The notes beneath the pieces are model-generated. The model had not been told where the DNA came from. It worked only from the letters and a program-made list of their open reading frames with translations, and did no database searches. A DNA stretch of 64,000 bases from Victivallaceae bacterium (GTDB lineage Bacteria; Verrucomicrobiota; Lentisphaeria; Victivallales; Victivallaceae): contig JAKSOF010000012.1 of assembly GCA_024405735.1 (NCBI GenBank), positions 1 through 64,000 on the forward strand. Direction: 5' to 3'. This document shows, one piece after another, positions 1,104-33,979 of this stretch. A program made the translations under genes and the position numbers. Within the stretch, counting starts at the first letter, position 1, and each line of letters begins with the position of its first letter.

Positions 1104-1108
1104 GTGAT

Positions 1109-6132: not shown

Positions 6133-6165
6133 TGTCGTCATCCTCATTTAATTCATGAAATGTCT

Positions 6166-6195
6166 ATAACATACCACAAAATGCCGCGATTTCAA
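6166..6195 (-). promoter_or_regulatory. Promoter of the surface-repeat gene
   Basis: On the minus strand TTGAAA (6190-6195) is followed after 16-18 bp by TATGTT or TGTTAT (within 6166-6173). Confidence 0.55.
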
Positions 6196-6223
6196 TTTGT
6201 CCGTTGATTTTTTTGCGTCATAC

Positions 6224-6252
6224 TTGTAAATCGCCTCCGGTATCCCTATATT
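6224..6252 (+). promoter_or_regulatory. Promoter of the large glycosidase-like operon
   Basis: TTGTAA (6224-6229), 17 bp, TATATT (6247-6252), 43 bp before the ATG at 6296. Confidence 0.7.
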
Positions 6253-6295
6253 ATTATAGTATCATCACTGAAAACCATAACGGGGGAAAAAGAGA

Positions 6296-9502: not shown

Positions 9503-9526
9503 ATCATTGGACAAGGAAAAGTTGCG

Positions 9527-11521: not shown

Positions 11522-11548
11522 AAATCCGGCATCTTGTTTCATCGGGAT

Positions 11549-11593
11549 TTGACAAACGCGGAATCGGTGCTATTTTATAACAGATATAACAGA
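11549..11593 (+). promoter_or_regulatory. Promoter and direct-repeat operator of the GntR-type regulator
   Basis: TTGACA (11549-11554) is followed at about 16-18 bp by an AT-rich -10 region (TATTTT/TTTTAT). Overlapping it and the expected transcription start are two perfect, adjacent copies of TATAACAGA (11576-11584 and 11585-11593), a likely operator, plausibly for the regulator encoded next. Confidence 0.6.
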
Positions 11594-11611
11594 TTTCGCG
11601 GGTTTTTCACG

Positions 11612-12637
11612 ATGCGGCAGTCAAAAACAACTTATGTCTACGATGCTCTTTTTGAGTTGCTCCGTACGGGGAGTTTTGCGCCCGGTGAGAAACTGCCGTC
11701 GATGCGGCAACTCGCCGACCGTTTCGGCGTCAGCACGATGACGGTCACGCTCGCGGCGGCGAAACTCGAAAAGGAAGGTGCGATCGTCCGCAGTGACCGC
11801 GCCGGGCTCTTTGTCGCCGATCACCGCAAGCAGTATGAACTGGACGGCATCATCACGTCGATCTCGCCCGAAACCGGGGCGGAGTATTACGCGCAGATGA
11901 TTTCCGGATGCAGTCACGCCCAAGTGATCCCGATGATCGTCGGCAACCGGAAAAAGGACATCGAATCGATGCTGGAAAAGAAACCCGTCCGGCTCTTTCT
12001 CGATTTCAGCATATGGGATATGCCGTACCGGGAGATATTGCGCCGGACGCGCGGCTTTGAAACGATTTTTTGCCACCGCTTTGAATGGACGGACGCGCTT
12101 CCCGGCTCCGCGGTCATTTCCGACTGGCAATTCATCACGACGGAAACGTTGCGTTATTTCCTTTCGCGCGGACACAAAAAGATTTTGTTTGTGAGCCACG
12201 ACGACGAGATTCGCGAACATAAACGGCGCAATTTTCTGTGCGCCGCAAGAGAACTCGGTCTGAAATTTGAAACGCCGGAATTTCAATGGTGCTGTGCGCG
12301 GGATTTTGAGGCAAACCCCGAAAGAGTAAAGCGTATTTTCCGCAAGGACGCGCCGACGGCACTTTTCAGCCGCGGCGACTGGCCGCTTTACCGCTTTATG
12401 CAAAATGTCCGACGCTTTTTCCCGGGATCCGCCAATGCCGAGATCGTCGGCGCCTACGATACCGAATGGTCGAATATCCCCGGCGGGGAGTTTGCATCCT
12501 GGCATTGGGACTGGGGAAAATTCTGGGACAAGGTCTTTTTTCATCAAAGCGGAGTCGAGTATTATCGTCCGCAACTTTTCACCAGGGAAAATGAATATGG
12601 AGCAAATCCCGTCGATCGACCGTCTTTTCCCCGATGA
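11612..12637 (+). CDS. GntR-family transcriptional regulator with a LacI-type sensor domain
   Basis: 341 residues from the ATG at 11612; an in-frame extension to 11534 crosses the promoter and is rejected. Residues 1-70 are a GntR winged helix (YDALFELLRTGSFAPGEKLPSMRQL, then FGVSTMTV...EKEGAIV). The rest resembles a periplasmic-binding/LacI effector domain (FLSRGHKKILFVSHDDE, a sugar-binding-type ATLF-like segment, and a late NAEIVGAYD). Such GntR/LacI hybrids control sugar-use operons. No clear ribosome site precedes the start. It is followed by an overlapping small ORF and the gene at 12780, so it probably controls its own operon of glycosidase-like genes. Confidence 0.85.
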   Translation: MRQSKTTYVYDALFELLRTGSFAPGEKLPSMRQLADRFGVSTMTVTLAAAKLEKEGAIVRSDRAGLFVADHRKQYELDGIITSISPETGAEYYAQMISGCSHAQVIPMIVGNRKKDIESMLEKKPVRLFLDFSIWDMPYREILRRTRGFETIFCHRFEWTDALPGSAVISDWQFITTETLRYFLSRGHKKILFVSHDDEIREHKRRNFLCAARELGLKFETPEFQWCCARDFEANPERVKRIFRKDAPTALFSRGDWPLYRFMQNVRRFFPGSANAEIVGAYDTEWSNIPGGEFASWHWDWGKFWDKVFFHQSGVEYYRPQLFTRENEYGANPVDRPSFPR

Positions 12638-12770
12638 ATGGCGCGCTTTTTGCAACGGGACGGTCGCGGTGCAAGTCGAGCGGCAGGAAATCGAGTTTTC
12701 CGCCGCCGGAGAACTTTGCTGGCTTGACCGGATCTTTGTCAAAGGTGACCATATCAGCGTTGAAATATAG
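12591..12770 (+). CDS. Small overlapping ORF between regulator and glycosidase-like gene
   Basis: 59 residues (MNMEQIPSIDRLFPDEW...). It starts 47 bp inside the end of the regulator gene, has AGGGA before its ATG, and stops 9 bp before the next gene. Its sequence is acidic and beta-rich (TVAVQVERQEIEF, CWLDRIFVKGDHISVEI) with a normal amino-acid mix, unlike most shadow frames. No family is recognised. It may be a real small protein, a coupling ORF, or the trace of a frameshifted C-terminus of the regulator. Confidence 0.45.
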   Translation: MNMEQIPSIDRLFPDEWRAFCNGTVAVQVERQEIEFSAAGELCWLDRIFVKGDHISVEI

Positions 12771-12779
12771 GAGTTCGCA

Positions 12780-15488
12780 ATGAAAAAAATATCGTTATTT
12801 TGCGCCGCGCTGGCGGCGGTCGCATCGATGGCGGCGGGACCGCAGAAAATGGCGCCCGAAAAAGGTTCGCGCGGTGTGCGCGTCCTCCTTTTCAACGGCG
12901 GCCGTCCGTGGCAGGGGGACGAGGTCGCCAATTTCCTTGTTTCCGGCGGATTGCGCGTCGTCGATTTCAACGGCGCGTATCTCGATGGCCTGGCGGGTGC
13001 GACGATCAAGGCGCATCCGACCGACCGCGTGGAACCGGTCGCTTTCGACGGTTTTACTCTGGCTTTTCAAAAATTGAAACCCTACCGCGACGCCGTCGTC
13101 GTCTTTCATCAGATACCGGCGCAAAATTACGCTGAAATCTTTACGCCGGAACGCGTTGCGCAACTGAAAAATTATCTGCAAAAAGGCGGCAATCTCGTTT
13201 TGACGCGGCATTTCCCCTCCGGCGTGATCGACGAGTTGCTGCCCGTCGTTCTTGGGGAAGATACGACGGTCGATGCCGCGGAAACTCTGGTCGCCGACCG
13301 TCCCGATGGAAAACTTTACCGTTGCATCCCGGAAAAGATCCCCGTCTACGGTTTTTATCAGATGGCGCAGTTGCGCCCCGGCGCCGAAGCGCTCAGTATG
13401 ATCCGGGACGAAAAGGGCAATGCGGTCGCTCCTCTTATCGCGCGCATCAAAGTCGGCAAGGGAAGCGTCACTTTTTTCAACGCCGAGCGGCGTCTGCAAA
13501 AGCAGATGCTCGAATTCGCCAACTGGGCATATCACCGCGCCTTGATGATTGCGGTGATCGCCGATTCCGCCAAGGCGTTGGGAGCGCATCCGGAAAAGGC
13601 GGTCAACCGTCTGGAAAAAGCCCCCGAAAGAGTGCAAACAGGCACTGTTTCCGTTTCGGCGAAGTTGCCGCAACTTGGCATCGTTGACGAGGAAAAAAAG
13701 GTCGTGCTGTCGGGAAATCGCGCGACATTCGGCAACGGTTGCGTCCTCGAAGTTCTGCCCGACGGCAAAGTTCAGATCACTTCTCCCGGCAAAGCGGCAC
13801 CTTATCTTAAAAACTACGGCATCCCGCAGATCAGATACTCGGAAAAACAGGCGGTTTTCGACTCGGCGACCGCCGAGGCGACCGAGGTCAAAGAGGATTT
13901 CAAAGCCGCCGATCTCAAATGGAAACTTGACAAAATCGAAACGCGCGGCAGGGCACTTGTCCTTACTTACACGGCAAAGGATTCTTTGATGCGCTGGATC
14001 TTCAAGGCGGGCAAACTTGAACTTGACGGACGCACCTTTTACGGTATCGGCGACTATGCGGAAGTGGAAAAAACGCCCTTCCTCGTCAGTCAGCTGGAAT
14101 TTTCCGGCGAACTCGACTTGCCCGAACCCCTTTTCGCCCACCGCAACGACTGCTATCAGGTGCCGCGCGGCTATACCGCCTTTGATATGACGGGCAAAAC
14201 GACGGCGACGACGCGCTTCTATACGGGACAGCCCTTTGAAATGGTCGTCTGCAAAAACGCGCTCTACATCGGCAACCGCTCTTATCCGGAATTCACTCAC
14301 GCGCAACTTGACCGCAAAGCGGGCGCGCCTTTCATCTCGACGAAGCATACGACGCATTTCGGGCGCGTTTACGCGCCGCTTGCCACGCACGCCTACTGGC
14401 ACTGGTTCGACGACGGCACGGAGCGCGCGCACAACGATTATCTTGCGATGTATCAGTATATGCGTCAGATGCTCCGCCGTCAGGCGGACTTGAAAGAACT
14501 TCCGCCTTATCCGGTCGCAGGCTACGGCTATCTCTCCCCCGACGAGGCGAAGCACTTTGCCGCCGAAGCGGTGAAACTCGGTTTCCGCTACATTTATCCG
14601 CCGATGCCGGAAAGTCCGATCGAGGAGATCGCCGATGAGAAAAATCTCTCCGTCTACCGGATGATCCGAGCGGCGGGCGGCAATGCCTACATCTGGACGG
14701 CGGGCAGTTACGTTCAGGGCGACGGCGGCGAAATTTTTCAGACGCATCCCGAATGGTTTTTAAAAGACGAAAAGGGTAAAGTCGTGCAGTATTTCGGCAC
14801 TTATCCCGTCATCGACCTCAACGCGCCGGGGTTTTACGAATTCTGCATCCCGATTTTTGAGGAAGCGATCAAAAACGGCGTCAAGTGGTTTTACCGCGAT
14901 ATGGACGGCGGCGCGGCGGGCGGCGTCAATTTCGGTACGCCGACCAGCCCGGGCGGAATGCCGGCGCAGATCCGGTTTTATAAATTTTTTCACGATCACG
15001 ACTGCCGCGTTTCGGTCGAGGGGATGAATCCGCTCGTCCTCGACGAATACTGGTACCGTCCGGAACTTTATACGAGTTTTTCCGGTAAGGAATTTGCACT
15101 CGTCGGGCAGGCGCCCAACAGCGGCATCGCCGGAGCGCTGACGCTCGATCACTTCCGGTTGGCGATGTACGGATGCTTCCCGAACTGGGTGCCGGAGGGG
15201 CTGATCTTCGGCATCGAGCGCGTGCCGGACGAGATCGCGCTTTCCCGGCGCGCCGCAAGTTTCGTCCCGGAATTCAACGCGGTGCTCGACCATGTCGGGA
15301 TGCCTTTCATCCGCGAAACGCCTTTCGGTTCGGTGTGGGTAAGCGAAAAGGGCGGCGCGCTCTTTTTCTGGAATCCGGCGGAAAAAGTGACGGTCGATCT
15401 GCCGCCAAACTGGCGCATCCGCGGCGTTGACGGCAACGTCCTCACCGACGTCAAACCCGACTCGATCTACTTTTTGGAGAAAAAATAA
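12780..15488 (+). CDS. Large exported glycosidase-like protein, paralogue of 6296-9502
   Basis: 902 residues with a signal peptide (MKKISLFCAALAAVASMAAG) and a good ribosome site (AGGAG). Residues ~30-270 are an amidotransferase/ThuA-like domain (LLFNGGRPW, RVAQLKNYLQKGGNLVLT). A beta-rich middle follows, then a probable TIM barrel with HPEWFLKDEKGK, YRDMDGG (~704), EGMNPL (~746) and FIRETPFGSVW near the end. It matches the 1068-residue protein throughout but lacks that protein's N-terminal binding domain, suggesting a duplicated enzyme with a different targeting module. Lies in the regulator's operon, so expression is probably induced by the product of its substrate. Confidence 0.65.
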   Translation: MKKISLFCAALAAVASMAAGPQKMAPEKGSRGVRVLLFNGGRPWQGDEVANFLVSGGLRVVDFNGAYLDGLAGATIKAHPTDRVEPVAFDGFTLAFQKLKPYRDAVVVFHQIPAQNYAEIFTPERVAQLKNYLQKGGNLVLTRHFPSGVIDELLPVVLGEDTTVDAAETLVADRPDGKLYRCIPEKIPVYGFYQMAQLRPGAEALSMIRDEKGNAVAPLIARIKVGKGSVTFFNAERRLQKQMLEFANWAYHRALMIAVIADSAKALGAHPEKAVNRLEKAPERVQTGTVSVSAKLPQLGIVDEEKKVVLSGNRATFGNGCVLEVLPDGKVQITSPGKAAPYLKNYGIPQIRYSEKQAVFDSATAEATEVKEDFKAADLKWKLDKIETRGRALVLTYTAKDSLMRWIFKAGKLELDGRTFYGIGDYAEVEKTPFLVSQLEFSGELDLPEPLFAHRNDCYQVPRGYTAFDMTGKTTATTRFYTGQPFEMVVCKNALYIGNRSYPEFTHAQLDRKAGAPFISTKHTTHFGRVYAPLATHAYWHWFDDGTERAHNDYLAMYQYMRQMLRRQADLKELPPYPVAGYGYLSPDEAKHFAAEAVKLGFRYIYPPMPESPIEEIADEKNLSVYRMIRAAGGNAYIWTAGSYVQGDGGEIFQTHPEWFLKDEKGKVVQYFGTYPVIDLNAPGFYEFCIPIFEEAIKNGVKWFYRDMDGGAAGGVNFGTPTSPGGMPAQIRFYKFFHDHDCRVSVEGMNPLVLDEYWYRPELYTSFSGKEFALVGQAPNSGIAGALTLDHFRLAMYGCFPNWVPEGLIFGIERVPDEIALSRRAASFVPEFNAVLDHVGMPFIRETPFGSVWVSEKGGALFFWNPAEKVTVDLPPNWRIRGVDGNVLTDVKPDSIYFLEKK

Positions 15489-15514
15489 TCCGGAGATAGC
15501 GTGGTGATGCGAAA

Positions 15515-16483
15515 ATGAAAAAATTTTTATTCGTTTTTTTCGCCCTGTGTGTTGTTTCGCTGTCGGCGCTTGATTACGCCGATAAGAACAACTGGGTGAT
15601 CTGTGAAAACGGCGCTTCTCCGGAAAGTTGCTTTGACGTTTTTTACGTCTATCCGACCCTGGTGGCGAATGCCGAGGTCGCGCTGATGGATTGCAATGAT
15701 CCTCAAGTCCGGCGTAAAACATTGGATTTCACCCGATCGCAAGCCGGATTGTGGGGCAAATCGGCGCGGATTTTTTCTCCTTACGTCCGGCAACTGGAAT
15801 ACGCCCGGGTGCTGAAAGCCGTCGGCGGAAATTGGGAAAGCTCTGAAATCAGAAGAGGTGTCGATGATACGCGGGAGGCTTTCCGCTATTATCTTGAGCA
15901 CTACAATCACGGACGGCCTTTCATCCTTTTTGGACACAGTCAGGGGGCAATGGATTTATATTGCCTGTTGAAAAACGAAAAAGAAATTTCGGCGGAGAAT
16001 GGTTTGGTCGCGGCGTATCTCATCGGCTTGCCCAAAGTGACGCATCACAAGTTCGACGCCGATTTTGCCGGACGCTCCGTCAAAAGTGCCGATGATGCCG
16101 GAACTCCCGGCGTCGTCGTGGTGTGGAATACACAAAACGCCGAGGCGAAAGAGTCGATTTTTACCGCGCCGGATGTTCTTTGCATCAATCCGCTGAATTG
16201 GCAAACCGATGAAACGGCGGCTCCCGCTTCGGAAAATCGCGGTGCCGTACTTTACGATTACCGCGACAATACAACGCGGCAAATTCCCTTTTTCTGCGGG
16301 GCGAAAATCGATTTGTCCAAGGGCGCGTTGATCGTCGATCTCCCGTCGCAAAGTACCTATGATTCCAACGCGATGATGGGGAAGGGGATCTTTCACGGCA
16401 ACGACATCTGGTTTTTTGCCGGAAATCTCCGGGAAAACGCTTTGCTCCGGCTGAAATTCTGGAATGAATTGAAAAAGAAGTGA
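15515..16483 (+). CDS. DUF3089 alpha/beta-hydrolase, exported
   Basis: 322 residues with a signal peptide (MKKFLFVFFALCVVSLSA). The family hallmarks are present: DVFYVYPT near the N-terminus, IFSPYVRQLEY, and the nucleophile elbow FGHSQGA. DUF3089 members are alpha/beta hydrolases of unknown substrate, often found in polysaccharide-use loci and thought to be esterases. It follows the gene at 12780 by 26 bp and probably closes that operon; an esterase acting on acylated glycan chains would fit, but this is inference. Confidence 0.85.
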   Translation: MKKFLFVFFALCVVSLSALDYADKNNWVICENGASPESCFDVFYVYPTLVANAEVALMDCNDPQVRRKTLDFTRSQAGLWGKSARIFSPYVRQLEYARVLKAVGGNWESSEIRRGVDDTREAFRYYLEHYNHGRPFILFGHSQGAMDLYCLLKNEKEISAENGLVAAYLIGLPKVTHHKFDADFAGRSVKSADDAGTPGVVVVWNTQNAEAKESIFTAPDVLCINPLNWQTDETAAPASENRGAVLYDYRDNTTRQIPFFCGAKIDLSKGALIVDLPSQSTYDSNAMMGKGIFHGNDIWFFAGNLRENALLRLKFWNELKKK

Positions 16484-16497
16484 TTTCAGGCTATATT
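16469..16497 (+). promoter_or_regulatory. Promoter of the GH36/symporter operon
   Basis: TTGAAA (16469-16474), 17 bp, TATATT (16492-16497). The -35 box lies inside the 3' end of the DUF3089 gene. Confidence 0.75.
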
Positions 16498-16527
16498 TTA
16501 TAATTCAGCAGTATAGAGAGTTTTTTC

Positions 16528-18300
16528 ATGAATATCGCAAGCGGCATCGTCCGGGATTTTGTACTGGAAGAAAAATCCGGTTCCCTTTGGGATTTTCAAG
16601 TTGAGCGCGAGTGCGGCGAAACGACGGAAGTCGAGATTTTCCGCTTTAAGATGACGGCGGAGCACCCGATTGAGCCTCAAACGTTTACGTTGCGCTGGAC
16701 ACTGCGCGACACCGACATTCATTACCGCTGGACGCCCGATACGTTTTTTGACGTTTATCTGCCGCCGGAATGGGCGGCGGCGTCGGAATCGAGCCTCGCA
16801 CTCAATATGCCGCTGATGTATTTCGGCGCGACCAACGGGGAAAACCGCTTCCTCTTTGCCGTTTCCGAGGCGAAAAAATCGTTGCGTTTCCGCGGCGGTC
16901 TGCGCGAGGAGGATAATTGCGTCCACTGCAAAGTGGAATTTTTCATCGCCCCCGACGCGCCGATGAAAGAATATGATTTTGCGTTGCGCTTTGATGCGCG
17001 CCATTTGTTTTACGCGGAAACGCTCGCGGCGGCGACATTCTGGTTTGAGCAACTGCCCGGCTACGCTCCCCTTGACGTGCCTCCTGCTGCGCGCGAGATC
17101 CTTTACTCCACCTGGTACGGCTATCATCAGAATGTCTTTGCCGACGTTTTGGAAAAAGAATATCGTTTCGCCGCGCAGATGGGGATGAAAACCGCCATCC
17201 TCGACGACGGCTGGCAGACCGAGGACAATCACCGCGGCTACGCCTATTGCGGCGACTGGCAGGTGGCGAAAAAGCGTTTCCCCGATATGCGCGAACACGT
17301 GAAAAATGTCCACGCGCTCGGCTTGAAGTATATGGTCTGGTTCAGCGTGCCCTTTGTCGGCAAATACAGCGCGAATTACGCCCGTTTCAAAGGGAAATAT
17401 CTCGTCGATCACGGCGAGGGGAAACTTCACGCCGCGATCCTCGACCCGCGCTTCCCCGAGGTGCGGCAGTTTTTGACTGACACCTTTGCGGCGGCGGTGC
17501 GCGACTGGGATCTCGACGGCTTGAAACTTGATTTTATCGACAATTTCCGCTTCGACGGGCCCGACCCCGCCGTTGCGGAAAACTACGCCGGACGCGACAT
17601 CCCGTCGTTGCCGGACGCCGTCGATCATTTGATGACCGGCATCGTGCAGGCTTTGCGCGCGCTCAAGCCGGACATCCTGATCGAATTCCGCCAGAGTTAC
17701 ATCGGCCCCGCCATCCGCCATTACGGCAATATGCTCCGCGCGGGGGATTGCCCGAATGATTTGTTGTCCAACCGCCGGCGCACGTTGGAATTGCGCCTTG
17801 TTTCCGGCAAAACGGCGATCCACTCGGATATGCTGGAGTGGCACTATCAGGATCGTGTGGAAAACGCCGCGTTGCAACTGCTCAACGTCCTCTTTTGCGT
17901 GCCGCAGATCTCGGTGCGGATCGAAGATCTGCCGCTTGACCACCGGATGATGCTCCAGCACTATCTCGACTTCTGGAAACAACACCGCGATTTGCTTTTG
18001 GATGGCGCGTTGCGTCCCTATCACCCCGAATTGCAGTACCCGCTGGTCACGGCGGCAAGACAATCGGAATTTCTGGCGGCGGTCTACGCCGGAAATCAAT
18101 CCATCGAATTCCCGAAGGCGGTGAAAAAAGTTTATATCGTCAACGCTTCCTGCGAAGAGACGGTACTGGTGAAACTGCCGGGCAAAGCGCAGATACGCCT
18201 CCTCGACGTCTGCGGCAATGAAACGCGGCATTTTGCGCTTGACGGCAACTGGCAAAGCCTTGCGGTCCCGCTTGCGGGAATGGCGGAAATCGAACATTGA
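16528..18300 (+). CDS. Cytoplasmic GH36-type alpha-galactosidase
   Basis: 590 residues without a signal peptide, so it works on imported oligosaccharides. Residues ~1-170 form the GH36-type N-terminal beta domain. The TIM barrel has LDDGWQ (~225-230), the nucleophile region DGLKLDFID (Asp about 335) and a downstream RAGDCPND that fits the acid/base aspartate. A C-terminal beta domain ends the protein. GH36 enzymes remove alpha-linked galactose or N-acetylgalactosamine. It is 26 bp before a sodium:solute symporter, suggesting that uptake and cleavage of an alpha-galactoside are linked; galE (3599-4597) would process the galactose. A weak AGAGAG precedes the ATG. Confidence 0.85.
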   Translation: MNIASGIVRDFVLEEKSGSLWDFQVERECGETTEVEIFRFKMTAEHPIEPQTFTLRWTLRDTDIHYRWTPDTFFDVYLPPEWAAASESSLALNMPLMYFGATNGENRFLFAVSEAKKSLRFRGGLREEDNCVHCKVEFFIAPDAPMKEYDFALRFDARHLFYAETLAAATFWFEQLPGYAPLDVPPAAREILYSTWYGYHQNVFADVLEKEYRFAAQMGMKTAILDDGWQTEDNHRGYAYCGDWQVAKKRFPDMREHVKNVHALGLKYMVWFSVPFVGKYSANYARFKGKYLVDHGEGKLHAAILDPRFPEVRQFLTDTFAAAVRDWDLDGLKLDFIDNFRFDGPDPAVAENYAGRDIPSLPDAVDHLMTGIVQALRALKPDILIEFRQSYIGPAIRHYGNMLRAGDCPNDLLSNRRRTLELRLVSGKTAIHSDMLEWHYQDRVENAALQLLNVLFCVPQISVRIEDLPLDHRMMLQHYLDFWKQHRDLLLDGALRPYHPELQYPLVTAARQSEFLAAVYAGNQSIEFPKAVKKVYIVNASCEETVLVKLPGKAQIRLLDVCGNETRHFALDGNWQSLAVPLAGMAEIEH

Positions 18301-18326
18301 AGTTTTCAAAATAAGGAGATGTTGCG

Positions 18327-20150
18327 ATGACAATGCATTTGAGCTGGATCGACTGGGGAATTGTCGGCGCGGTTTTTCTGCTGACGCTTCTGATCGGGCT
18401 TTCCGGTGCGAAAAGCGCCGGAAAAAGCAAAGCCGATTTCTTCGTCGGGGGGAGATCGATGCCGTGGTGGTTGCTCGGCTTCTCGATGGTCGCGACGACT
18501 TTTTCCACCGACGTGCCGAATCTCGTTACCAATTTCGTGCGCGAATTCGGCGTCTGCGGCAACTGGCAATGGTGGGCGATGCTGCCGAGCGGGATGCTGA
18601 CGGCGTTTCTCTACGCCAAACTCTGGCGGCGCAGCCGCACGATCACCGACCTCGAATTTTATGAATTGCGCTACAGCGGGAAACTCGCCGCTTTTCTGCG
18701 CGGTTTCCGCGCGGTCTACCTCGGATTGTTTTTCAACGTCATCGTGATGGCGAGCGTCACGCTCGCCGCGATCAAGATCGGCGGCACGATGCTCAATCTC
18801 ACGCCGATCCAAAGTGTCGTCGGCGCAATGGTCATCACCGCTTTTTTCTCATCGGCGGCGGGGTTGCGCGGCGTCCTGATGAGCGACTTTCTCCTTTTCA
18901 TCCTCTCGATGGCGGGTGCGGTCGCGGCGGCGTATTTTGCCGTCAGCCGTCCGGAAGTCGGAGGGCTTTCCGGCTTGATCGGGAAATTTTCCGCCAATGC
19001 GGAAATGCTCCGCAAATCGCAGGTGATGGGCTTCGGCACGTGGAGCGACTGGTGCGCGCTTTTTATCATCCCGTTGACCGTCATTTGGTGGAGCATCTGG
19101 TATCCGGGCGCGGAACCCGGCGGCGGCGGCTTCATCGTCCAGCGTATGCTGGCGGCGAAAGATGAAAAGAATGCCGTCGGCGCGACGCTCTTTTTCAACA
19201 TCACTCATTATGCGTTGCGCCCGTGGCCGTGGCTGCTCGTCGCGCTCGCTTCGATGATCGTCTACCCCGACCGCGCTTCGCTCGTCGCCGCCGTTCACGG
19301 CGTGTTGCCCGATGCGCAGATCCAGAACGACGTCGCCTACTCCTTGATGTTGCGCGATCTCCCCGTCGGCTGGATGGGGGTGATGGTCGCTTCGCTTTTT
19401 GCCGCTTACGTTTCGACGATCTCGACGATGCTCAACTGGGGCTCCAGTTACCTCGTCAACGATTTCTACGACCGCTTCATCCACCGCGGCGCGTCGGAAA
19501 AAGAAGCGGTCTGGGTCGGTCGCGGCTTCACGGTACTGCTGATGATCTGCGCCGGGATCCTCGCGCTCTTTCTGGAAAGCGCGCTGGGCAGTTTCAATTT
19601 GTTGCTTTCCATCGGCGCGGGAACGGGATTGCTCTTTTTACTGCGTTGGTTCTGGTGGCGCATCAACGCCGCCGCCGAATTGACCGCGATGATCGCCTCT
19701 TTTATCTTTGCGCTTTATTTCAATTTACTGCACAGCAAACTTTTTCCGGCGATCGTTTTGTCCGACAGCGAAAAAATGGTCTATTCGATCATCCTGACGA
19801 CGGTCTGCTGGCTCATCGCCTGCTATTTCGGCCCCCGGACGTCACAGACGCGGCTCTTTGATTTCTGCCGCCGCATCAATCCATCCGGCTTCGGCTGGAG
19901 CGCCGTCCGCCGCGAAGCGGCAGAGCAGGGGATCGACTTGTCCAACGCCGACGCTCCGCGTGAAGCCGTCCTTCCCGGCATTACCGCCGCCGTTTTCGGC
20001 TGTCTTGCCGTCTACGGCGCGCTCTACGGGACGGGGGAAATCATTTACGGGCATTACCTCAACGCCGTGCTCGCCGCATCCGGCACGGTCATTACGGGCA
20101 GTCTGATGTGGTATTTCGGCATCGTCATCCCGCGCCGCAGGCGCGCGTAG
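18327..20150 (+). CDS. Sodium:solute symporter (SSS family)
   Basis: 607 residues with about 14 hydrophobic segments; AAGGAG precedes the ATG. The first helix and FFVGGRSMPWWLLGFSMVATTFSTD are characteristic of the SSS family, as is the later YVSTISTMLNWGSSYLVND stretch. It would move a sugar or related solute across the inner membrane with sodium. The partner gene encodes a cytoplasmic GH36 enzyme, which points to an alpha-galactoside as cargo. It ends 10 bp from the convergent LacI-type regulator, which may control this pair. Confidence 0.9.
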   Translation: MTMHLSWIDWGIVGAVFLLTLLIGLSGAKSAGKSKADFFVGGRSMPWWLLGFSMVATTFSTDVPNLVTNFVREFGVCGNWQWWAMLPSGMLTAFLYAKLWRRSRTITDLEFYELRYSGKLAAFLRGFRAVYLGLFFNVIVMASVTLAAIKIGGTMLNLTPIQSVVGAMVITAFFSSAAGLRGVLMSDFLLFILSMAGAVAAAYFAVSRPEVGGLSGLIGKFSANAEMLRKSQVMGFGTWSDWCALFIIPLTVIWWSIWYPGAEPGGGGFIVQRMLAAKDEKNAVGATLFFNITHYALRPWPWLLVALASMIVYPDRASLVAAVHGVLPDAQIQNDVAYSLMLRDLPVGWMGVMVASLFAAYVSTISTMLNWGSSYLVNDFYDRFIHRGASEKEAVWVGRGFTVLLMICAGILALFLESALGSFNLLLSIGAGTGLLFLLRWFWWRINAAAELTAMIASFIFALYFNLLHSKLFPAIVLSDSEKMVYSIILTTVCWLIACYFGPRTSQTRLFDFCRRINPSGFGWSAVRREAAEQGIDLSNADAPREAVLPGITAAVFGCLAVYGALYGTGEIIYGHYLNAVLAASGTVITGSLMWYFGIVIPRRRRA

Positions 20151-25613: not shown

Positions 25614-26099
25614 CTACTTTTTCCGGGTGAGCCCCTCGGTGATCTTGCGGCAGATAAGCCGTGCGGCGTCTTCCATCAATTTCGCCTCCTCCTGCGTACA
25701 ACCGGAAAAATAAGCGAGCATTTTCAAATTGATGTTGTCTTCCTGTTGCGTGATCGCTTCATTCGCCTTTTGGGACAGCGAGATGATGACATTCCGGCGG
25801 TCGGCGGGATCATCCCGTCGCTCCAGCACGCCGAGTTTGACCATCTTTTCGACGAAAATCGACGCCCCCGCCGAACTCATTCCGGTCAATTCCATGACGC
25901 GCCCGAGATTGCAGGGCAGATTGTTGCGCACCGCAAGCAGGTGATTGTACTGCTTGCGGGGGACGGACAACGTGCGGAAATCCCATTCGGCATCAAAAAG
26001 GCGGCGTCTTTCCACTTCGAGCATCCGGCACATCCGCTTGAAAATCTCGACGGAATCAAGCGTTTCAAGCGATTTCAAGGTATCGTTTTGCTTTTTCAT
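25614..26099 (-). CDS. MarR-family transcriptional regulator
   Basis: 161 residues from the ATG at 26099; a longer in-frame start lies inside the upstream gene. The winged helix is clear: NLGRVMELTGMSSAGASIFVEK as recognition helix, then LERRDDPADRRNVII as the wing with the conserved Asp-x-Arg. The gene begins 2 bp after the 713-residue secretin gene, so it is the last gene of the secretin operon and may regulate it. Ligand unknown. Confidence 0.88.
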   Translation of the reverse strand: MKKQNDTLKSLETLDSVEIFKRMCRMLEVERRRLFDAEWDFRTLSVPRKQYNHLLAVRNNLPCNLGRVMELTGMSSAGASIFVEKMVKLGVLERRDDPADRRNVIISLSQKANEAITQQEDNINLKMLAYFSGCTQEEAKLMEDAARLICRKITEGLTRKK

Positions 26100-26101
26100 C
26101 G

Positions 26102-28243
26102 CTAACGGATCTCCTTGTACTCGTCGTCGTAACGGTTGCCGATCTCGTCCAACTGCTCCAGGCGGTCTTCCCGGTCGGGATCGAGCCACAACTGCTGAAA
26201 CAGCATATTGCCGAAACGGCTTTTCATACCGGTATTGACGCCCTTGATGATTTTACCGATGTCTTCACGGACGTCGCTGCCCATATTGCCGTCGGCTTCA
26301 GAGTATTCGACGTGGGCGATCAATACGAGCTGACTTTGCTTGATCGATTCGGTTTCGGTCGAAAAAAGTCTGCCGATGATCGGCATATCTTTGAGGTAAG
26401 GCAATCCCGCCGTGCCGCGTACCGCTTCCGATTTACGCAAGCCGCCGATGATGAAATCTTCACTGCTGTAACTGATTTGCACGGTCGTCTTGTTGCCGGA
26501 TTTCGAGGTGCGGGCGGAACCGTCGGAATTCCAGCCGAGCAGAGAAATGCTGTTGAGATCAAAAGTAAGCTGCGCCGCCTTGCCGGTGACGACCGGAGTC
26601 ACTTTCAAATCGAAACGGAATCCGTCGGTCGGCATCGGGTACTGGAGCCAGCCGTGAATGACGCCGGGCGCGGAATCGACCGCATTCCAGTCGGTGTTGT
26701 AATAAACGGCGCGGGTCGAAGTGCCGTCGGCGGAAACGTATCCCGTCAGCCATTTGGAAAGCGCGCTGGTCGCGGTGTCGCCGCCGAGTTTGGCGATGGC
26801 ATCGTGCATCAGCGCGGTGCCGGTCTGCGTACCCATCGTCCGCATCGTGTAACCCGCTCCCGCAAGATAGTAGAGTTTCCCCTGCGCCATCAGTTGCTGA
26901 CACGTCGCCGTCGCAAAAGCCGCCGCTTCCGCCGCCGTTTTGCCCTGCATCAGCGCGCTTTGATAAGCGTTGGCGTAGGCGGTCTGATAATCCGTCATCC
27001 CCGCCTGATTGTAGGCGTCGGTAAGAGTTCCGATCGGCATCATTTTCGCCATCGACTCGCGCAAAATCGTATCGGGATTGGGGTCGGTGTACGTGAATTC
27101 CCGACACGCTTCAGCGATGGACGTCGCCCCTGCCTTGTAATAGGTGCGGTCGTAGAAAAATCCGCTGTTGACCTGAATATTGCTCGTCTTGCGGTTTTGC
27201 GCGACGAGGACGCCTTCGGCGAGACACTTCGCCTTGCCGATCGAAGTCATGAAGTCAAGATAACGGGTGTTCCACTTGGGGTTGAAATTCCAGTAGCCCG
27301 TGCGGTTGTGGCCGGAAGGCTGGACGCCGCTGGTGAAAAAAGTTCCCCAGTTGCGGCGGATGACTGTCCCGGCGGAAAAAAGGTCGATGCCTTCGTTGTT
27401 TTTCCAGCTCTGGAAATCGACGCCGATACGGTCGTCGTTTTCCGCATAGATTTCCAGAATGCGGTAGGAAACTTTGATTTCGGGGATCTGACGGTCGTAC
27501 TTTTTGAGCATCGCGAGGATCTCCGCCCAGTTCCATTGCGGCGCTTTGACGATCAGCGCATTCAAGCCGCCGTCGACGAGTACCGTGCCGGGGGCGACGG
27601 CGAATTCGGGATCCAACTCGGAAGAACCGACTTTGAGGATCATGTCGCGCAGATTGGCGGCGCGGCTCAAACGGGGAAAGTAGACGTGCGCATCCGCGTC
27701 GGGCAGATAAGTCAATCCGGGGCGGTCGAGCGACTGGACGATGTTGTCGATGCCGCGTCCGTCGGACGAATCTTTGAAGCGGTAGGCTTCGGCGGAAACG
27801 AGGACGACGCCCGTGCCGTCGGTGTATTTGACCGCCGTCACCTGCGCGGGACTGGCGACGACGCTTTTTGCACCGACGGCGGCTTCAAGGTAACTGCGCA
27901 CGGCGTAGGGATCGGCGTGCTTCAGGACATACGGCTTGGTGATGACGTAGGGGTCGGTGTTATCGCGGATGACCTTGACTTCCCTTGTCCCTTCCTTGAC
28001 GTCGATTTTGAGTTGCGCCTGCACGTTGCTCGGCGCGTAGCCACCTGTCATTTCGTTGTTGGCGGCGCGCGGAGTTCCCGCGATCGGTTGCGGCGTCAGC
28101 GTGATTTCGCGATGTTCGGGCTGCCGGACGGCAGGCTGATAAACTGCGGGCGTATGCCGCTGCTCCTGTTTGGGAGTATTGCACCCGGCAAAGAAGAATG
28201 CGGCGCCGAGGAAAACAAAAGAAGAATAAATTTGCTGTTTCAT
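26102..28243 (-). CDS. Secretin-domain outer-membrane lipoprotein
   Basis: 713 residues with a lipoprotein signal (MKQQIYSSFVFLGAAFFFAGC). Residues ~100-190 look like a secretin N1-type domain (YVLKHADPYAVRSYLEAAV, then VLVSAEAY and DNIVQSLDRPG). A second N-domain-like stretch follows (ALIVKAPQWNWAEILAMLKKYD). The C-terminal part has the secretin signature GLPYLKDMPIIGRLFS followed by QLVLIAHVEY. An insertion of about 150 residues rich in Ala, Tyr and Gln sits in the middle. Secretins form the outer-membrane pore of type II secretion and pilus systems; no other parts of such a system are in the window. It is 17 bp after a second secretin-like gene. Confidence 0.78.
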   Translation of the reverse strand: MKQQIYSSFVFLGAAFFFAGCNTPKQEQRHTPAVYQPAVRQPEHREITLTPQPIAGTPRAANNEMTGGYAPSNVQAQLKIDVKEGTREVKVIRDNTDPYVITKPYVLKHADPYAVRSYLEAAVGAKSVVASPAQVTAVKYTDGTGVVLVSAEAYRFKDSSDGRGIDNIVQSLDRPGLTYLPDADAHVYFPRLSRAANLRDMILKVGSSELDPEFAVAPGTVLVDGGLNALIVKAPQWNWAEILAMLKKYDRQIPEIKVSYRILEIYAENDDRIGVDFQSWKNNEGIDLFSAGTVIRRNWGTFFTSGVQPSGHNRTGYWNFNPKWNTRYLDFMTSIGKAKCLAEGVLVAQNRKTSNIQVNSGFFYDRTYYKAGATSIAEACREFTYTDPNPDTILRESMAKMMPIGTLTDAYNQAGMTDYQTAYANAYQSALMQGKTAAEAAAFATATCQQLMAQGKLYYLAGAGYTMRTMGTQTGTALMHDAIAKLGGDTATSALSKWLTGYVSADGTSTRAVYYNTDWNAVDSAPGVIHGWLQYPMPTDGFRFDLKVTPVVTGKAAQLTFDLNSISLLGWNSDGSARTSKSGNKTTVQISYSSEDFIIGGLRKSEAVRGTAGLPYLKDMPIIGRLFSTETESIKQSQLVLIAHVEYSEADGNMGSDVREDIGKIIKGVNTGMKSRFGNMLFQQLWLDPDREDRLEQLDEIGNRYDDEYKEIR

Positions 28244-28260
28244 CGTATATGCCTTGTCAG

Positions 28261-29823
28261 TTATTTTTCATTTCCGTTGTCCCGCAGGGGATTTTCGATC
28301 CGGCGGCTGATCTCCGTCGACATACTGCTGTCAACGGGAGTCCACGGCGTGTCGGGCGAAACCATTTCCGCTTCGGCGGTGACGATGATGTAGGTGCGTT
28401 CTTTGATGCTGGTCACGGTGCTGAAAAGATATTTCAACACGGGAATGCGGCAGAAAAACGGCAAGCCGATGGTCTGCTCGACGTCGTTTTCCTTTTCGTA
28501 GATCGCGAGCACTTTTTCCTGATTGAAACCGAGTGAAGTCGCTCCGCAGATCAATGCGGAACTGTCCAGTTCCGCTCCGGTGTTGCCGCGTTCGACGACC
28601 GCCTTGAAAAAGATCGAGTAGTCGAAAAGGACGCCGCCCTGCTTGGGAAGACTGTTCTGCAAATGATAGAATTCCGGTGTTGACGGGATGAAACCTTGGG
28701 CATCGGCGGGCGTTTTGCCGCTTCCGAAGCAGATAAAGGGATTGACGATCTGCGCCTCCAGATTGGGGGGATTGGGTTGCATTTCGCCGTCTTCATCCTC
28801 GGTGAAACTCTTGCCGATGAAAGAACGGCCCAGCGTGTTTTTCTGGATGTTCTGGTATTCCGGCTGCATCGAAATACGGTAGATGAAAGGAGCGATGTCG
28901 GGATGGTTTTCCTGAACTTTTTTGAGCAGAGCATACTCTTTTTCGTTGGCGACGGGCGTGTTGATCATCACCATACTGGCGTGGGCGACCGCCGTCGCAT
29001 TGCCCGACTGCTGAAGACAGCGGATGAAACTCATATCAAAGGCGGGGGCGGTGAAAAAGCCGCCGATGCCCCAGCTGGTCGTGAAATTGAAAGCCTGTTC
29101 CGCAAGTTTGCCGAGCACTTCGTTGACGACCATTTCCCCGGCATTGTATCCGGCGGCAAAAAGATTGACGCCGGGGCCGTTTTTCCAGGCGAGATAGTCG
29201 AAGCCCCAGTCTTTGAGGTCGCTGTCGCGCATCTGGTAGTAGTTGAGCCGAATCTGTACCTGCGGCACGGGGCGGTCGAGTTTTTCGACGAATTTCAGCG
29301 TGCGCTTGGCGGCGTCGCTCTGGTCGCGCCAGAAAATCGTGTTGGACTCCTGGTTGACGTAGGCTTGTCCGCTGGAACTTGAAATCGTGGCGTTGACAAG
29401 ATTGCCGAAATCGGATGCGGCGCGGTAGCGCGGGGAATAGGCGATCCGGGCAAGTCCGGTGCCGCTGATCGGCGAAGTTCCCGGTTTGCCCGGGCGGTCG
29501 AGCGCGGCAATGATCGCGTCGACGTAGGGGATGAAGTCGCTCCCCGTCGAAACGAGCAACGCGCCCGCGCCGTTATTCTGATCGGTGACGCGCCGGATCG
29601 TCGAATAGGCGTTGTACCGCTTGATCGCCGAGTTGACAAAGGGCAGCATCTCCTCGGCGGAAACGTGTTTCAGCGGGTAGATCTTGCTCTCAAAGTGGAT
29701 CTGCGCGTCGTCTTGCACCAGATGGATGGTGCGCGAACTTTCTCCGGCGGAGAGCATCGCGCCGGAGAAAAAGAGCGCGCCGCATACCGCCGCCGGAATT
29801 TGCCGGATCGGAAAAATTCTCAT
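28261..29823 (-). CDS. Second secretin-domain exported protein
   Basis: 520 residues with a signal peptide (MRIFPIRQIPAAVCGALFFSGAML). The N-terminal domain resembles that of the neighbouring secretin (YPLKHVSAEEMLPFVNSAIK, then LLVSTGSDFIPYVDAIIAALDRPG). A middle segment has a GspD-like repeat (VQIRLNYYQM). The C-terminus has the secretin signature in weakened form, GLPFFCRIPVLKYLF, followed by YIIVTAEAEM. It is clearly related to but well diverged from the 713-residue protein. The two may form a mixed pore or two separate rings. It lies 31 bp downstream of a small lipoprotein gene. Confidence 0.75.
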   Translation of the reverse strand: MRIFPIRQIPAAVCGALFFSGAMLSAGESSRTIHLVQDDAQIHFESKIYPLKHVSAEEMLPFVNSAIKRYNAYSTIRRVTDQNNGAGALLVSTGSDFIPYVDAIIAALDRPGKPGTSPISGTGLARIAYSPRYRAASDFGNLVNATISSSSGQAYVNQESNTIFWRDQSDAAKRTLKFVEKLDRPVPQVQIRLNYYQMRDSDLKDWGFDYLAWKNGPGVNLFAAGYNAGEMVVNEVLGKLAEQAFNFTTSWGIGGFFTAPAFDMSFIRCLQQSGNATAVAHASMVMINTPVANEKEYALLKKVQENHPDIAPFIYRISMQPEYQNIQKNTLGRSFIGKSFTEDEDGEMQPNPPNLEAQIVNPFICFGSGKTPADAQGFIPSTPEFYHLQNSLPKQGGVLFDYSIFFKAVVERGNTGAELDSSALICGATSLGFNQEKVLAIYEKENDVEQTIGLPFFCRIPVLKYLFSTVTSIKERTYIIVTAEAEMVSPDTPWTPVDSSMSTEISRRIENPLRDNGNEK

Positions 29824-29854
29824 CGTAAAATCCTTAATTTTATTAAAGGGTGTT

Positions 29855-30298
29855 TCAGAGGAACTGGAAAGAAACGATCAGTATTTCGTCGCCGCTCTTG
29901 CCGGTAATGACGCGAAAGAGCGCTTCGCCGTGGATCAGATCGCCTTCCTTGCCGGTGCGCTCAAATGCGACTTTCCAGACGAAAGGCGTAAAAACCGGCA
30001 TCTGCAACGTGGTGAGATAACGGAAACTTTTCGGCTCGCCGAGCGAATCGACGATCGAGAAGCGGTAGGTGCGGAAACGGTTGGCGTCAAAAGCCTGTTG
30101 TTTGTCTTCGGGAAGCAGGGAAACGAAAGTATCCGGATCGTTTTCCAGAAAGGCGGTCATCAATTTGCGCGCTTTCCGGTATTCCGGAGTAGTCGGTTCC
30201 GTGGTGAGCGATTCCGCCGGAAGTTCCTTGACCGTCGTGCATCCGGCGAGAAAAAGTCCCGCCAGAAACGCAAGCCAGTACCGGGTGATTTTTTTCAT
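29855..30298 (-). CDS. Small lipoprotein at the head of the secretin operon
   Basis: 147 residues with a clean lipobox (LFLAGC, Cys 20). The mature part has helix-rich residues (RKARKLMTAFLENDPDTFVSLL) then beta strands (TPFVWKVAFERTG, ILIVSFQFL), an order that resembles NTF2-like fold proteins. No family is assigned. Because it is the first gene, directly before two secretin genes, a role as a pilotin-like helper that targets the secretin to the outer membrane is a fair guess, but there is no sequence proof. Confidence 0.7.
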   Translation of the reverse strand: MKKITRYWLAFLAGLFLAGCTTVKELPAESLTTEPTTPEYRKARKLMTAFLENDPDTFVSLLPEDKQQAFDANRFRTYRFSIVDSLGEPKSFRYLTTLQMPVFTPFVWKVAFERTGKEGDLIHGEALFRVITGKSGDEILIVSFQFL

Positions 30299-30354
30299 TG
30301 CAAAATCCTTTCAACTAAATCAGTTTTTGATGTTGATGTCTTTTGTTGAAAGAT

Positions 30355-30383
30355 AATATAGCGCAAAAATCCCCTTTTGTCAA
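30355..30383 (-). promoter_or_regulatory. Strong promoter of the secretin operon
   Basis: On the minus strand TTGACA (30378-30383), 17 bp, TATATT (30355-30360). This is the best -35/-10 match in the window. Confidence 0.88.
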
Positions 30384-30475: not shown

Positions 30476-31471
30476 TTACCGGACGAGCGCTTTTTCGGCG
30501 GATCTCGCCGCCAGTTGATCGGCGGTGACGGCAACGATGATGATCAGACCGATGACGACCAGCTGGACGTTGGTCGAGATGTCGAGCAATGTCAATCCGT
30601 TGCGGAGGAAGTTGATCAGAAGGACGCCGATCAAAGTTCCCGTCATCGAGCCGCGGCCGCCGGAAGGGGAGGTGCCGCCGATGATGACCCCGGCGATGAC
30701 GTCAAGTTCCAGAGAGAGCCCGGCGGAAGGCTGGGCGGAACTGGCGCGGGCGGTGCCGATCATCGCGGCAAGTCCGGTCAATGCACCCGTCAGCGTGTAG
30801 ATCCACGTCAAAACGTTGCGGACGTTGATCCCGGCGTGAAAGGCGGTGTTGCTGTTGGCGCCGATGGCATAAGTGTAGCGGCCGAAAGGCGTGTATTTGA
30901 GGAGATAGCCAAAAAAGAGCAATACTGCGGCGAGCAAAACGACGGCGACGGGAATGTTGCCGATCGTGCCGACGTCAAGATAACTGTAGGCGGAAACGGC
31001 AAAGGGTTTGCCGTCGTTGGCGAGATAGGAAATGCCGCGGAAAATGCTCATCGAGCCGAGCGTAACGATAAAAGGGGCAAGTTTCAACCGGGTGATGATG
31101 ACTCCGTTGAGCCAGCCGCACAACGCGCCCGCCGCGATCCCGGCGGCGGTGCCGATCAGCATACTGCTTGCGGAAAGCGCAAAGTATTCCCCGGAGCAGA
31201 TCGCCGCCCACTCGGCGCCGTTGGCGGCGAGCATGGACGCCGCTCCCGCCATACCGCACATCGCGAGCATCGAGCCGATCGAGAGATCGATGCCGGAGGA
31301 GATGATGACAAACGTCATCCCGGCGGCGATGATGCCGTTGATCGACGACCGCCGCAGGACATTCATCATATTCTGGAAACTTAAAAAGTTTTCCGGCTCC
31401 AGAAACGTCCAGAGCGAAATGATGAAAAGCAAAGAGGAAAAGGGAAGAAGTTGTTTTGCAAGCCGATTCAT
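30476..31471 (-). CDS. Sugar ABC transporter permease (RbsC type)
   Basis: 331 residues, mostly hydrophobic with about 9-10 membrane segments. The conserved permease motifs of the ribose/xylose/galactose type are present: GMTFVIISSGIDLSIGSML, then LCGWLNGVIITRLKLAPFIVTLG, and GVIIGGTSPSGGRGSM near the C-terminus. It forms the inner-membrane channel for the ATPase encoded just before it. Its start is 1 bp after the ATPase stop, with AGGAG inside the ATPase gene. Cargo is probably a monosaccharide or small sugar. Confidence 0.93.
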   Translation of the reverse strand: MNRLAKQLLPFSSLLFIISLWTFLEPENFLSFQNMMNVLRRSSINGIIAAGMTFVIISSGIDLSIGSMLAMCGMAGAASMLAANGAEWAAICSGEYFALSASSMLIGTAAGIAAGALCGWLNGVIITRLKLAPFIVTLGSMSIFRGISYLANDGKPFAVSAYSYLDVGTIGNIPVAVVLLAAVLLFFGYLLKYTPFGRYTYAIGANSNTAFHAGINVRNVLTWIYTLTGALTGLAAMIGTARASSAQPSAGLSLELDVIAGVIIGGTSPSGGRGSMTGTLIGVLLINFLRNGLTLLDISTNVQLVVIGLIIIVAVTADQLAARSAEKALVR

Positions 31472-31472
31472 A

Positions 31473-32999
31473 TTACTTATTCTCCTGTTGATCGATTTTT
31501 CCCGTGGCGGCGAGGCGGATGATTTTTTCCGGAGTAACGTCTTGGGTCGGGAAGTCGCCGACGATGCTTCCCTCGCGCATCACCAAGATCCGGTCGCAAA
31601 CGCCGAAAAGTTCCGGCAGTTCCGATGAGATGAAAAGGATCGCCTTGCCGCGTTTGGCGAGGTCGTCCAGCAAAAGATAGATCTCCTTTTTGGCGCCGAC
31701 GTCGATGCCGCGCGCCGGTTCGTCGACGATGAGGAATTTGGAGTCGGCGAGCAACCAGCGCCCGAGCAGGACTTTTTGCTGATTCCCGCCGGAAAGCGTT
31801 TCGACGGCATCGTCGGGTGAAGCCCATTTCAGATTGAGCTTTTCGCCGATCTGCCGGGCGGTGTCGCGTTCTTTTTTCAACGCCAGACGGAAGCGCATTT
31901 TGAGTTTCCGGAAACTGGGCAGCGTGATATTCCAGCTGGAGGGCAGCATCAGGCACAGCCCGGAGCGTTTGCGGTCTTCCGTCAGATAACCGATCCCCTG
32001 CCGGATCGCGGCGCGCGGGGATTGGACATCAAGCGTTTTGCCGTCGAATTTCAGGATGCCGGAAGTTTTGGGGACGATGCCGAAAATCGCATCGGCGGTT
32101 TCGGAACGCCCCGCTCCGACGAGCCCCGCCATGCCGACGATCTCGCCGCGCCGCACTTGAAACGAGACGTTTTTGACGCCGTTGGGGGCGGAAAGGTTTT
32201 CGACTTCAAAGCCGCCATTGGCAATGGAACCGGTGCGCGCCGGGTAGAAATCGCCGACTTCGCGGCCGACCATGTGGCGGACGATCTCGTCGATGGAAAT
32301 TTTGTCGGCGGCTTGACTGCAGACGATTTTGCCGTCGCGCAAAACGCTGATGTCATCGGCGATTTCCTTGACTTCCTGCAAATGGTGCGAAATGTAGATG
32401 ACGCCCGTGCCGGAGTCGCGTAAATTGCGGATGATGCGGAAAAGTTCCGCCGATTCGCTTTCCGAGAGCGAGGCGGTCGGCTCGTCCATCACGATGATGC
32501 GGGCGTGACGGCGCAACGCCTTAAGCAATTCGACGATCTGGCATTGCCCGGGGGAAAGTTCGCTTACGAGCGCGTCGGGGGCGAGCCGGAAATGATTTTC
32601 ATTGATCATTTTGCCGACGATCTCGCGCTCCGCCGCGAAATCGACTTTGCGCGAAAGTTTTGACGCGAGAATTTCCGAACCGAGAAAGACGTTTTCAAAG
32701 ACGCTCAAGTTGTCGGAAAGTTCCAATTCCTGATAGAGCATCGCGACCCCCGCGCGCAAGGCGTCGGCGGGAGTGCGAAAAATTTTTTCCTCGCCGTCGA
32801 TGCGGATCTTGCCGCCGTCGGGCGTGTGGACTCCCGCAAGGACTTTCATCAGCGTCGATTTCCCCGCGCCGTTTTCGCCGCAAAGAGCGTGGACGCTGCC
32901 GCTTCGCACGGCAAACGTGACGTCGTCCAGCGCACGGATGCTTCTGAAGTTTTTGCTGATATGCTCCATCTGGAGCAAAAAAGTCGCAAAATTTGCCAT
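31473..32999 (-). CDS. Sugar ABC transporter ATP-binding protein (RbsA/MglA type)
   Basis: 508 residues made of two fused ATPase domains, as in RbsA, MglA and XylG. Domain 1 has Walker A GENGAGKST (~residue 40), signature LSPGQCQIVELL and Walker B IIVMDEPTA. Domain 2 has a degenerate Walker A (GLVGAGRSE), signature LSGGNQQKVLLGRWL and IVDEPARGIDVG. It powers uptake through the permease at 30476. It is 2 bp from the binding-protein gene, in the order binding protein, ATPase, permease. Confidence 0.95.
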   Translation of the reverse strand: MANFATFLLQMEHISKNFRSIRALDDVTFAVRSGSVHALCGENGAGKSTLMKVLAGVHTPDGGKIRIDGEEKIFRTPADALRAGVAMLYQELELSDNLSVFENVFLGSEILASKLSRKVDFAAEREIVGKMINENHFRLAPDALVSELSPGQCQIVELLKALRRHARIIVMDEPTASLSESESAELFRIIRNLRDSGTGVIYISHHLQEVKEIADDISVLRDGKIVCSQAADKISIDEIVRHMVGREVGDFYPARTGSIANGGFEVENLSAPNGVKNVSFQVRRGEIVGMAGLVGAGRSETADAIFGIVPKTSGILKFDGKTLDVQSPRAAIRQGIGYLTEDRKRSGLCLMLPSSWNITLPSFRKLKMRFRLALKKERDTARQIGEKLNLKWASPDDAVETLSGGNQQKVLLGRWLLADSKFLIVDEPARGIDVGAKKEIYLLLDDLAKRGKAILFISSELPELFGVCDRILVMREGSIVGDFPTQDVTPEKIIRLAATGKIDQQENK

Positions 33000-33001
33000 G
33001 T

Positions 33002-33979
33002 TTACAGCCCCAATGCCTGTGGATAGGTCTGCTTCATCTTTTCGAGATTTTCCTGCCGGACGATGATACTGGGCACGGCGAATTTCCGCTCCACTTTTTC
33101 GCCGCGGAGGATCTTTGCCGTCTGCTTGACGCTCTGATAGCCGATCTCAAAGGGGTTCTGGGCGATGATGGCGAGGACTTTGCCGTGTTGCACGCCGTCG
33201 AGCAGGATCGGGTCGGAGTCGAATGCGACAAATTTGATTTTATCCGCAAGGTGTTGGTTTTCAATGCCTTTAAAGGCTCCGACACTCGCCGGATGATTGA
33301 CGGCAAAAATAGCGTCGGTCTGGGGATAGCGCATCAGCAGGTCGACGGTTTTCTGCCGCGCGTCCTCGACGGTGCCGAGCGTGTAGGGCGCCGACAATAT
33401 CTCAATGCCGGGGAAATCTTTTTTGATCGTTTCCACGAAACCGCGGCAGCGCTCGTCGGTCGAAGCGGAGTTCTGGAGGAACTGGATGACCAGCACTTTG
33501 CCGTGCCCGCCGAGATGCGCGCCGATGATTTTCGCCGCATCCGCGCCGCCGGCAAAATTGTCGGTGGCGACAAAGGTGTCGTATTTTTCCGTCGCCGCCA
33601 TCGAGTCCATGATGACGCAGGGGATCTTCTTTTCGGAAATGGATTCGATCGGGCGCGCCAGAGCGTGAAAATCATTGGGGCCGACGACGATCGCATCGGC
33701 GCCCTTGATGATGGCGTCTTCGACCGCCTGGATCTGCTTTTCGCGGTCGCTTTCCACTTCCGGTCCGTTCCAGCTGATCGCAAAATTTTCCTCATCGGCG
33801 GCTTGCAGCGCGCCTTTGTGAACGACTTCCCACCACATATTGATGGTTCCTTTGGGGACCATTGCAATATAGCGTTTTTCAATCTTGCGCTGACGGGTGA
33901 TCTTTTTGTAGACGCCGAGCGAAAAAAGCACGGCGGATGCGAGCAAGAGCAGAATGACGAAACCGTTTTTTCCGCGCAT
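33002..33979 (-). CDS. Sugar-binding protein of the ABC transporter (RbsB type)
   Basis: 325 residues. It belongs to the periplasmic binding-protein family used by ribose-type transporters: YIAMVPKGTINMWWEVVHKGA, then QIQAVEDAIIKGADAIVVGPND, VATDNFAGG and VAFDSDP. The N-terminus (FVILLLLASAVLFSLGVYKKI) is hydrophobic but lacks a clear lipobox or signal-peptidase site, so it may stay as a membrane anchor. It captures the sugar in the periplasm. A LacI-type operator-like palindrome lies just after its promoter. AAAGGAG precedes the ATG. Confidence 0.92.
   Translation of the reverse strand: MRGKNGFVILLLLASAVLFSLGVYKKITRQRKIEKRYIAMVPKGTINMWWEVVHKGALQAADEENFAISWNGPEVESDREKQIQAVEDAIIKGADAIVVGPNDFHALARPIESISEKKIPCVIMDSMAATEKYDTFVATDNFAGGADAAKIIGAHLGGHGKVLVIQFLQNSASTDERCRGFVETIKKDFPGIEILSAPYTLGTVEDARQKTVDLLMRYPQTDAIFAVNHPASVGAFKGIENQHLADKIKFVAFDSDPILLDGVQHGKVLAIIAQNPFEIGYQSVKQTAKILRGEKVERKFAVPSIIVRQENLEKMKQTYPQALGL

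Follow-up and report, generated by a model that had tools for sequence, protein, structure and literature searches.

What might a bacterium do with two different secretins encoded one after the other in an operon that holds no other part of a secretion machine? The question is raised by a 64,000-nucleotide stretch of a Victivallaceae bacterium (assembly GCA_024405735.1, contig JAKSOF010000012.1, positions 1 to 64,000; hereafter the window), which is contig C4 of a 1.89-Mb genome that is 97% complete. On its minus strand lie the genes of a short secretin of 520 amino acids (S, positions 28261 to 29823) and, 17 bp further on, of a long one of 713 amino acids (L, positions 26102 to 28243). Secretins are known as gates in machines for secretion, for pili, and for the export of phages. 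We found that S and L are indeed secretins and that they form a pair conserved far beyond chance in the order Victivallales (Lentisphaeria), whose members live in the gut and in the environment. As to function, we tentatively propose, with a probability of roughly 40%, that this dedicated pair makes an outer membrane pore outside the operons of type II secretion systems (T2SS) and pili, and that this pore most likely serves as a regulated conduit through which nutrients are acquired.

S and L as a conserved secretin pair

Both proteins of the window matched the Pfam families Secretin (E = 1e-13 for L and 0.002 for S) and Secretin_N (E = 2.5e-8 for S and 3e-4 for L), and the barrel domain, PF00263, was found in the C-terminal part of each of the 43 S and 43 L homologues. 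The two sequences are related (E = 2e-13) and have in common a conserved WKN..G motif that follows the second N domain; each also showed invariant residues when compared with its homologues. In the AlphaFold models, two KH-like N domains are followed by long secretin-barrel strands in S (mean confidence, pLDDT, of 71) as well as in L (mean of 60), the latter with a poorly modeled helical insert at about residues 376 to 500 and an unmodeled stretch of 98 residues at the N terminus. Searches of the PDB with Foldseek put secretins on top for both (PulD, ExeD, and GspD for S; GspD and ExeD for L), with alignments spanning most of each protein and a poor superposition (template modeling score of ca. 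0.3) of the kind to be expected from low-confidence single-chain models, and profile searches matched structures of pIV, PilQ, and GspD. The first-pass annotation, made from the letters of the sequence, had claimed secretin signatures and a common N-terminal domain pattern for the two proteins; both claims are borne out, and neither model lacks the barrel.

Neither protein reached the cutoff of any named secretin family, with 53.7 (L) and 22 bits (S) against the 351 set for GspD, and 49.2 (L) and 35.8 bits (S) against the 284 set for PilQ. The N0 domain is the part by which T2SS secretins dock to the inner membrane platform (GspC). It was not found with the STN or PF21305 profiles in any of the 43 S and 43 L proteins; in the S of the window, the mature protein has too few residues ahead of its first N domain to hold it, while for L, in which the corresponding stretch is unmodeled, the absence is the one given by the profiles.

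S was detected in 88 of the 97 sampled genomes of Victivallales and in one of 291 others of the phylum, and the closest named match of the window protein came from the metagenome-assembled genome UBA1791, a member of the Lentisphaeria (85% identity). In the 101 loci sampled, L directly follows 101 of the 104 S genes; of the remaining three, that of L117 lies at a contig end, that of L116 is split, and that of L115 is unexplained. The cultured species Victivallis vadensis also carries S-L pairs, and in its strain DSM 14823, S-L goes together with an operon for an NMT1-type ATP-binding cassette transporter (L221/L103). At two loci, the pairs stand in tandem (L085, positions 1649 to 8176, and L132, with S genes at 7218 and 11096).

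The genome of the window has six secretin-like genes arranged as three pairs. The second is another operon of S, L, and a lipoprotein gene (LP; see below) on contig C3 (positions 4254 to 7387), where the gene of an SNF symporter comes next after 23 bp, and its products are 37% (S), 38% (L), and 33% (LP) identical to those of the window. The order appears to have duplicated the S-L module and placed the copies under different regulators. The third pair is found on contig C12 (L011, positions 7426 to 12309, at about 79.4 to 84.3 kb of the contig), where two differing secretins of 832 and 787 amino acids lie in a row in an operon with PilM and two more genes upstream. The second of these scored best against the Amuc_1098 family (255 bits; cutoff, 750), a family whose member in Akkermansia exceeds all other outer membrane proteins of that species in abundance (PMC4960237). 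We discarded the idea that S and L are copies of these pilus secretins, given that the cross-profile scores between S and L were ca. 84 to 160 bits, versus 0 to 43 for the C12 proteins.

Importers beside the pairs and the outer membrane

For 25 of 97 pairs, the operon also encodes an importer, namely Pst, PiT, an NMT1-type ATP-binding cassette transporter, an amino acid permease, or Feo. The 53 genes that lie operonically downstream include seven for PstS-like proteins, seven for NMT1-type binding proteins, six for amino acid permeases, one for a PiT-type transporter, one for an SNF symporter, and one that we identified by eye as FeoA, followed by FeoB. The PstS-like genes begin 67 to 251 bp from L, often within one transcription unit, and are followed by PstC, PstA, PstB, and PhoU where the locus extends far enough. 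Altogether, transport genes made up about 23 of these 53 genes and about 8 of 91 distant control genes (P = 2e-6, uncorrected), the control count being approximate and generous, with just the 25 commonest families listed. PII-AmtB and FeoB also adjoin S, each in single loci.

The converse test is stronger. When the 30 best Pfam matches to PstS in the order were taken regardless of S-L, eight had L within 1.5 kb, and these belonged to four families (P = 1e-7 at an assumed background of 2%, with no correction for kinship). Linkage to Pst or PiT also recurs on several separate branches of the tree of S and L.

Two further loci deserve mention for their neighbors. In L081 (positions 390 to 9084; genome G044), the genes behind S-L encode a PiT phosphate transporter and a protein of 396 amino acids, and next come exopolyphosphatase-like and polyphosphate kinase-like genes, these two recognized by eye only. 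In L063 (positions 11490 to 16157; genome G032, contig C7), genes for Cas9-like (1,235 amino acids) and Cas1-like (313 amino acids) proteins, seen by eye only, adjoin S-L in the opposite direction.

Omp85 was encoded in all 21 genomes tested, and therefore these bacteria have an outer membrane. Of 81 Victivallales genomes, a single one, G039, showed the plug domain of TonB-dependent receptors, and in this genome S-L had no match. OprB was absent from all 21 genomes searched. This near absence of TonB receptors alongside S-L is suggestive, not proof.

The operon in the window and its regulation

A single promoter, TTGACA-17-TATATT (positions 30355 to 30383, minus strand; 11 of 12 consensus matches), precedes four genes, all on the minus strand. 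The first encodes LP, a lipoprotein of 147 amino acids with the lipobox LAGC (positions 29855 to 30298); S follows after 31 bp, then L, and, 2 bp behind L, a MarR-family regulator of 161 amino acids (positions 25614 to 26099; Pfam MarR_2, E = 2e-7), for which an alternative, longer GTG start would overlap L and is unnecessary. Promoter, gene order, and protein sizes all agree with the first-pass annotation. Its suggestion that the lipoprotein is a candidate pilotin gained no support: profile searches with LP matched no pilotin family and gave weak, NTF2-like hits to the CaMKII hub and DUF3887, and LP was labeled just 39 times among the 101 loci, either ahead of S or behind L. An RbsBAC-like operon upstream (positions 30476 to 33979) was dismissed as a partner, because LP lies behind a promoter of its own, and in the close relative L062 this operon does not adjoin S-L.

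Within the clade of the window, LP-S-L is usually followed by MarR, which comes directly after L in seven other loci. The operator-like motif TGAAAGAT (positions 30347 to 30354, no strand assigned) abuts the -10 box on its downstream side and is present in 8 of the 11 leaders of this clade, compared with 2 among 116 further genes at those loci, although part of this conservation is kinship, the leaders of LP-S-L-MarR operons coming from related genomes. These leaders also show a 16-bp periodicity that is significant against shuffles, with degenerate tandem repeats of ca. 16 bp around TGAAAGATATT in the window (positions 30299 to 30354) and in the leaders of L073, L074, L114, L128, and L130. 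Some copies overlap the ribosome-binding site, and both an operator array and an RNA element are possible. Control of the operon probably lies with the MarR protein that it encodes, perhaps by way of TGAAAGAT at the promoter.

Possible functions and relation to known systems

If S-L is a conduit for nutrients, S and L would co-assemble or stack into one pore, presumably in the outer membrane, that works without relying on a type II secretion or pilus operon. Copies of the pair would have been recruited to different regulators, several of them into nutrient-import operons, and through the pore a scarce solute, which in the clearest cases is phosphate, might pass to the neighboring periplasmic binding protein and inner membrane importer; in some clades, LP may help to position the ring or put it together. 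We favor such stand-alone use because machine genes are absent, N0 was not found, and importers are present. Of the two alternatives that had been raised from the sequence, a separate outer membrane device is therefore the one to retain, with the pair standing alone at 100 of 101 loci, often with a lipoprotein and away from gsp and pil operons, and a mixed pore used by a machine whose genes lie elsewhere is less favored. That device had been pictured as one for export; the neighborhood points instead to import, several pairs being part of import operons, for phosphate above all. A wider claim, that in Victivallales substrate-specific hetero-secretin pores under nutrient regulators stand in for TonB-dependent receptors as gated nutrient entries across the outer membrane, is bolder, and we regard it as unlikely as it stands.

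Several observations weigh against the nutrient conduit. About three-quarters of the pairs have no importer in the operon, those of the window's clade included, and the copy in the window has no conserved importer partner. The enrichment of importers became weak once related pairs were collapsed (P = 0.03 at 60% identity and 0.12 at 50%). No convincing repeat of a Pho box was found before the Pst-linked S genes, the best candidates matching at 9 to 10 of 14 positions (background mean, 8.8). OprB and the TonB-receptor plug were the only porin or receptor families sought, and others may exist. Moreover, there are genomes (family f8) with neither S-L nor TonB receptors, so that the absence of these receptors is not the exact complement of S-L. 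To these must be added locus L099 (positions 13146 to 19999; genome G174, contig C5), where a T2SS- or pilus-like operon with PilN directly follows LP-S-L.

That locus also bears on the main rival explanation, which we hold to be rather unlikely: S-L would be an alternative gate of a pilus- or T2SS-like machine encoded elsewhere, swapped in under nutrient limitation to export scavenging enzymes such as phosphatases, or pseudopilin fibers. The genome does have parts of such a machine away from S-L, with the PilM operon on C12, GspE/PilT-type ATPases on C12 and C14, and prepilin peptidase-like genes, and in Caulobacter, type II secretion is induced by phosphate starvation (PMC2996285). However, this machine already has its own secretin pair, no N0 docking domain was detected in S or L, and the import operons that we inspected contain genes for importers and regulators but none for an exported enzyme. 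Pseudopilins are common in S-L loci but without a preferred position beside the pairs, so we rejected them as partners. A T2SS or type IV pilus context likewise failed as a general setting: T2SS genes adjoin the pair at L099 alone of 101 loci, in keeping with the earlier statement that the operon holds no other secretion parts, GspE/PilT homologues occurred at just two loci (ca. 8 kb away in L058 and adjoining in L099), and a pilMNOP context was not seen at the S-L loci inspected. A gsp operon beside these genes in a relative had been named in advance as an argument against a distinct system, and L099 is the single such case; yet its operon encodes its own N0-bearing GspD, and S-L is therefore an extra there.

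A second explanation takes S-L for a general envelope pore or structural ring, serving efflux, envelope stress, or fiber extrusion, whose proximity to importers reflects only shared regulation by starvation. The diversity of neighbors agrees with it, as does the lack of an importer beside most pairs, and the copy in the window is tied to a regulator of the MarR family, which is often connected with efflux and stress. We nevertheless judge it quite unlikely, given that the Pst linkage recurs in four families and several branches and that L and PstS so often share a transcription unit. Finally, the divergence of the barrel region of S (the Pfam E value of 0.002) might suggest that the pair goes back to a pilus secretin whose duplication is decaying or came about by chance and has no role of its own, but near universality in the order, invariant residues in both proteins, strict gene order, and a conserved promoter motif make this very improbable.

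Were the nutrient conduit real, it would add nutrient acquisition to the roles of secretins and help to explain how solutes cross the outer membrane in bacteria almost without TonB receptors; since the cultured V. vadensis carries the pairs, the idea is open to testing. In Planctomycetes, of the same superphylum, macromolecule uptake has been speculated to occur at crateriform outer membrane structures of unknown make-up (PMC5394234). We found no description of the S-L module in the literature searched (paired secretins, Lentisphaerae secretins, and secretins with nutrient uptake; the search was not exhaustive).

Among known systems, GspD (PulD, ExeD, and EpsD) is the best structural match, with KH-like N domains and then a secretin barrel, but S-L has no detected N0, no gsp genes, and two different secretins per operon. 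PilQ and HofQ, of type IV pili and DNA uptake, are also secretins, and natural competence already provides an example of import by way of a secretin; S-L differs in having neither AMIN nor N0, no pilus genes in the operon, and scores under all PilQ/HofQ cutoffs. The Amuc_1098-family pair on C12 of the same genome likewise has two secretins in a row, but these contain TPRs, belong to a PilM operon, and are distant in sequence from S and L. Like S-L, pIV of filamentous phages is a minimal secretin without a bacterial secretion operon, and it was the top PDB profile match of S, whereas S-L occurs as a pair on the chromosome, across the whole order and near importers; a phage origin was discarded, the match being to the generic pIV family and no phage genes being recognized in the loci read. 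TonB-dependent receptors, SusCD, and phosphate porins correspond to the proposed role, as outer membrane partners encoded beside a dedicated importer, but their fold is unrelated and S-L is no member of them. The S-L family is a new variant of secretins, and as a device for nutrient import it would be new in kind.
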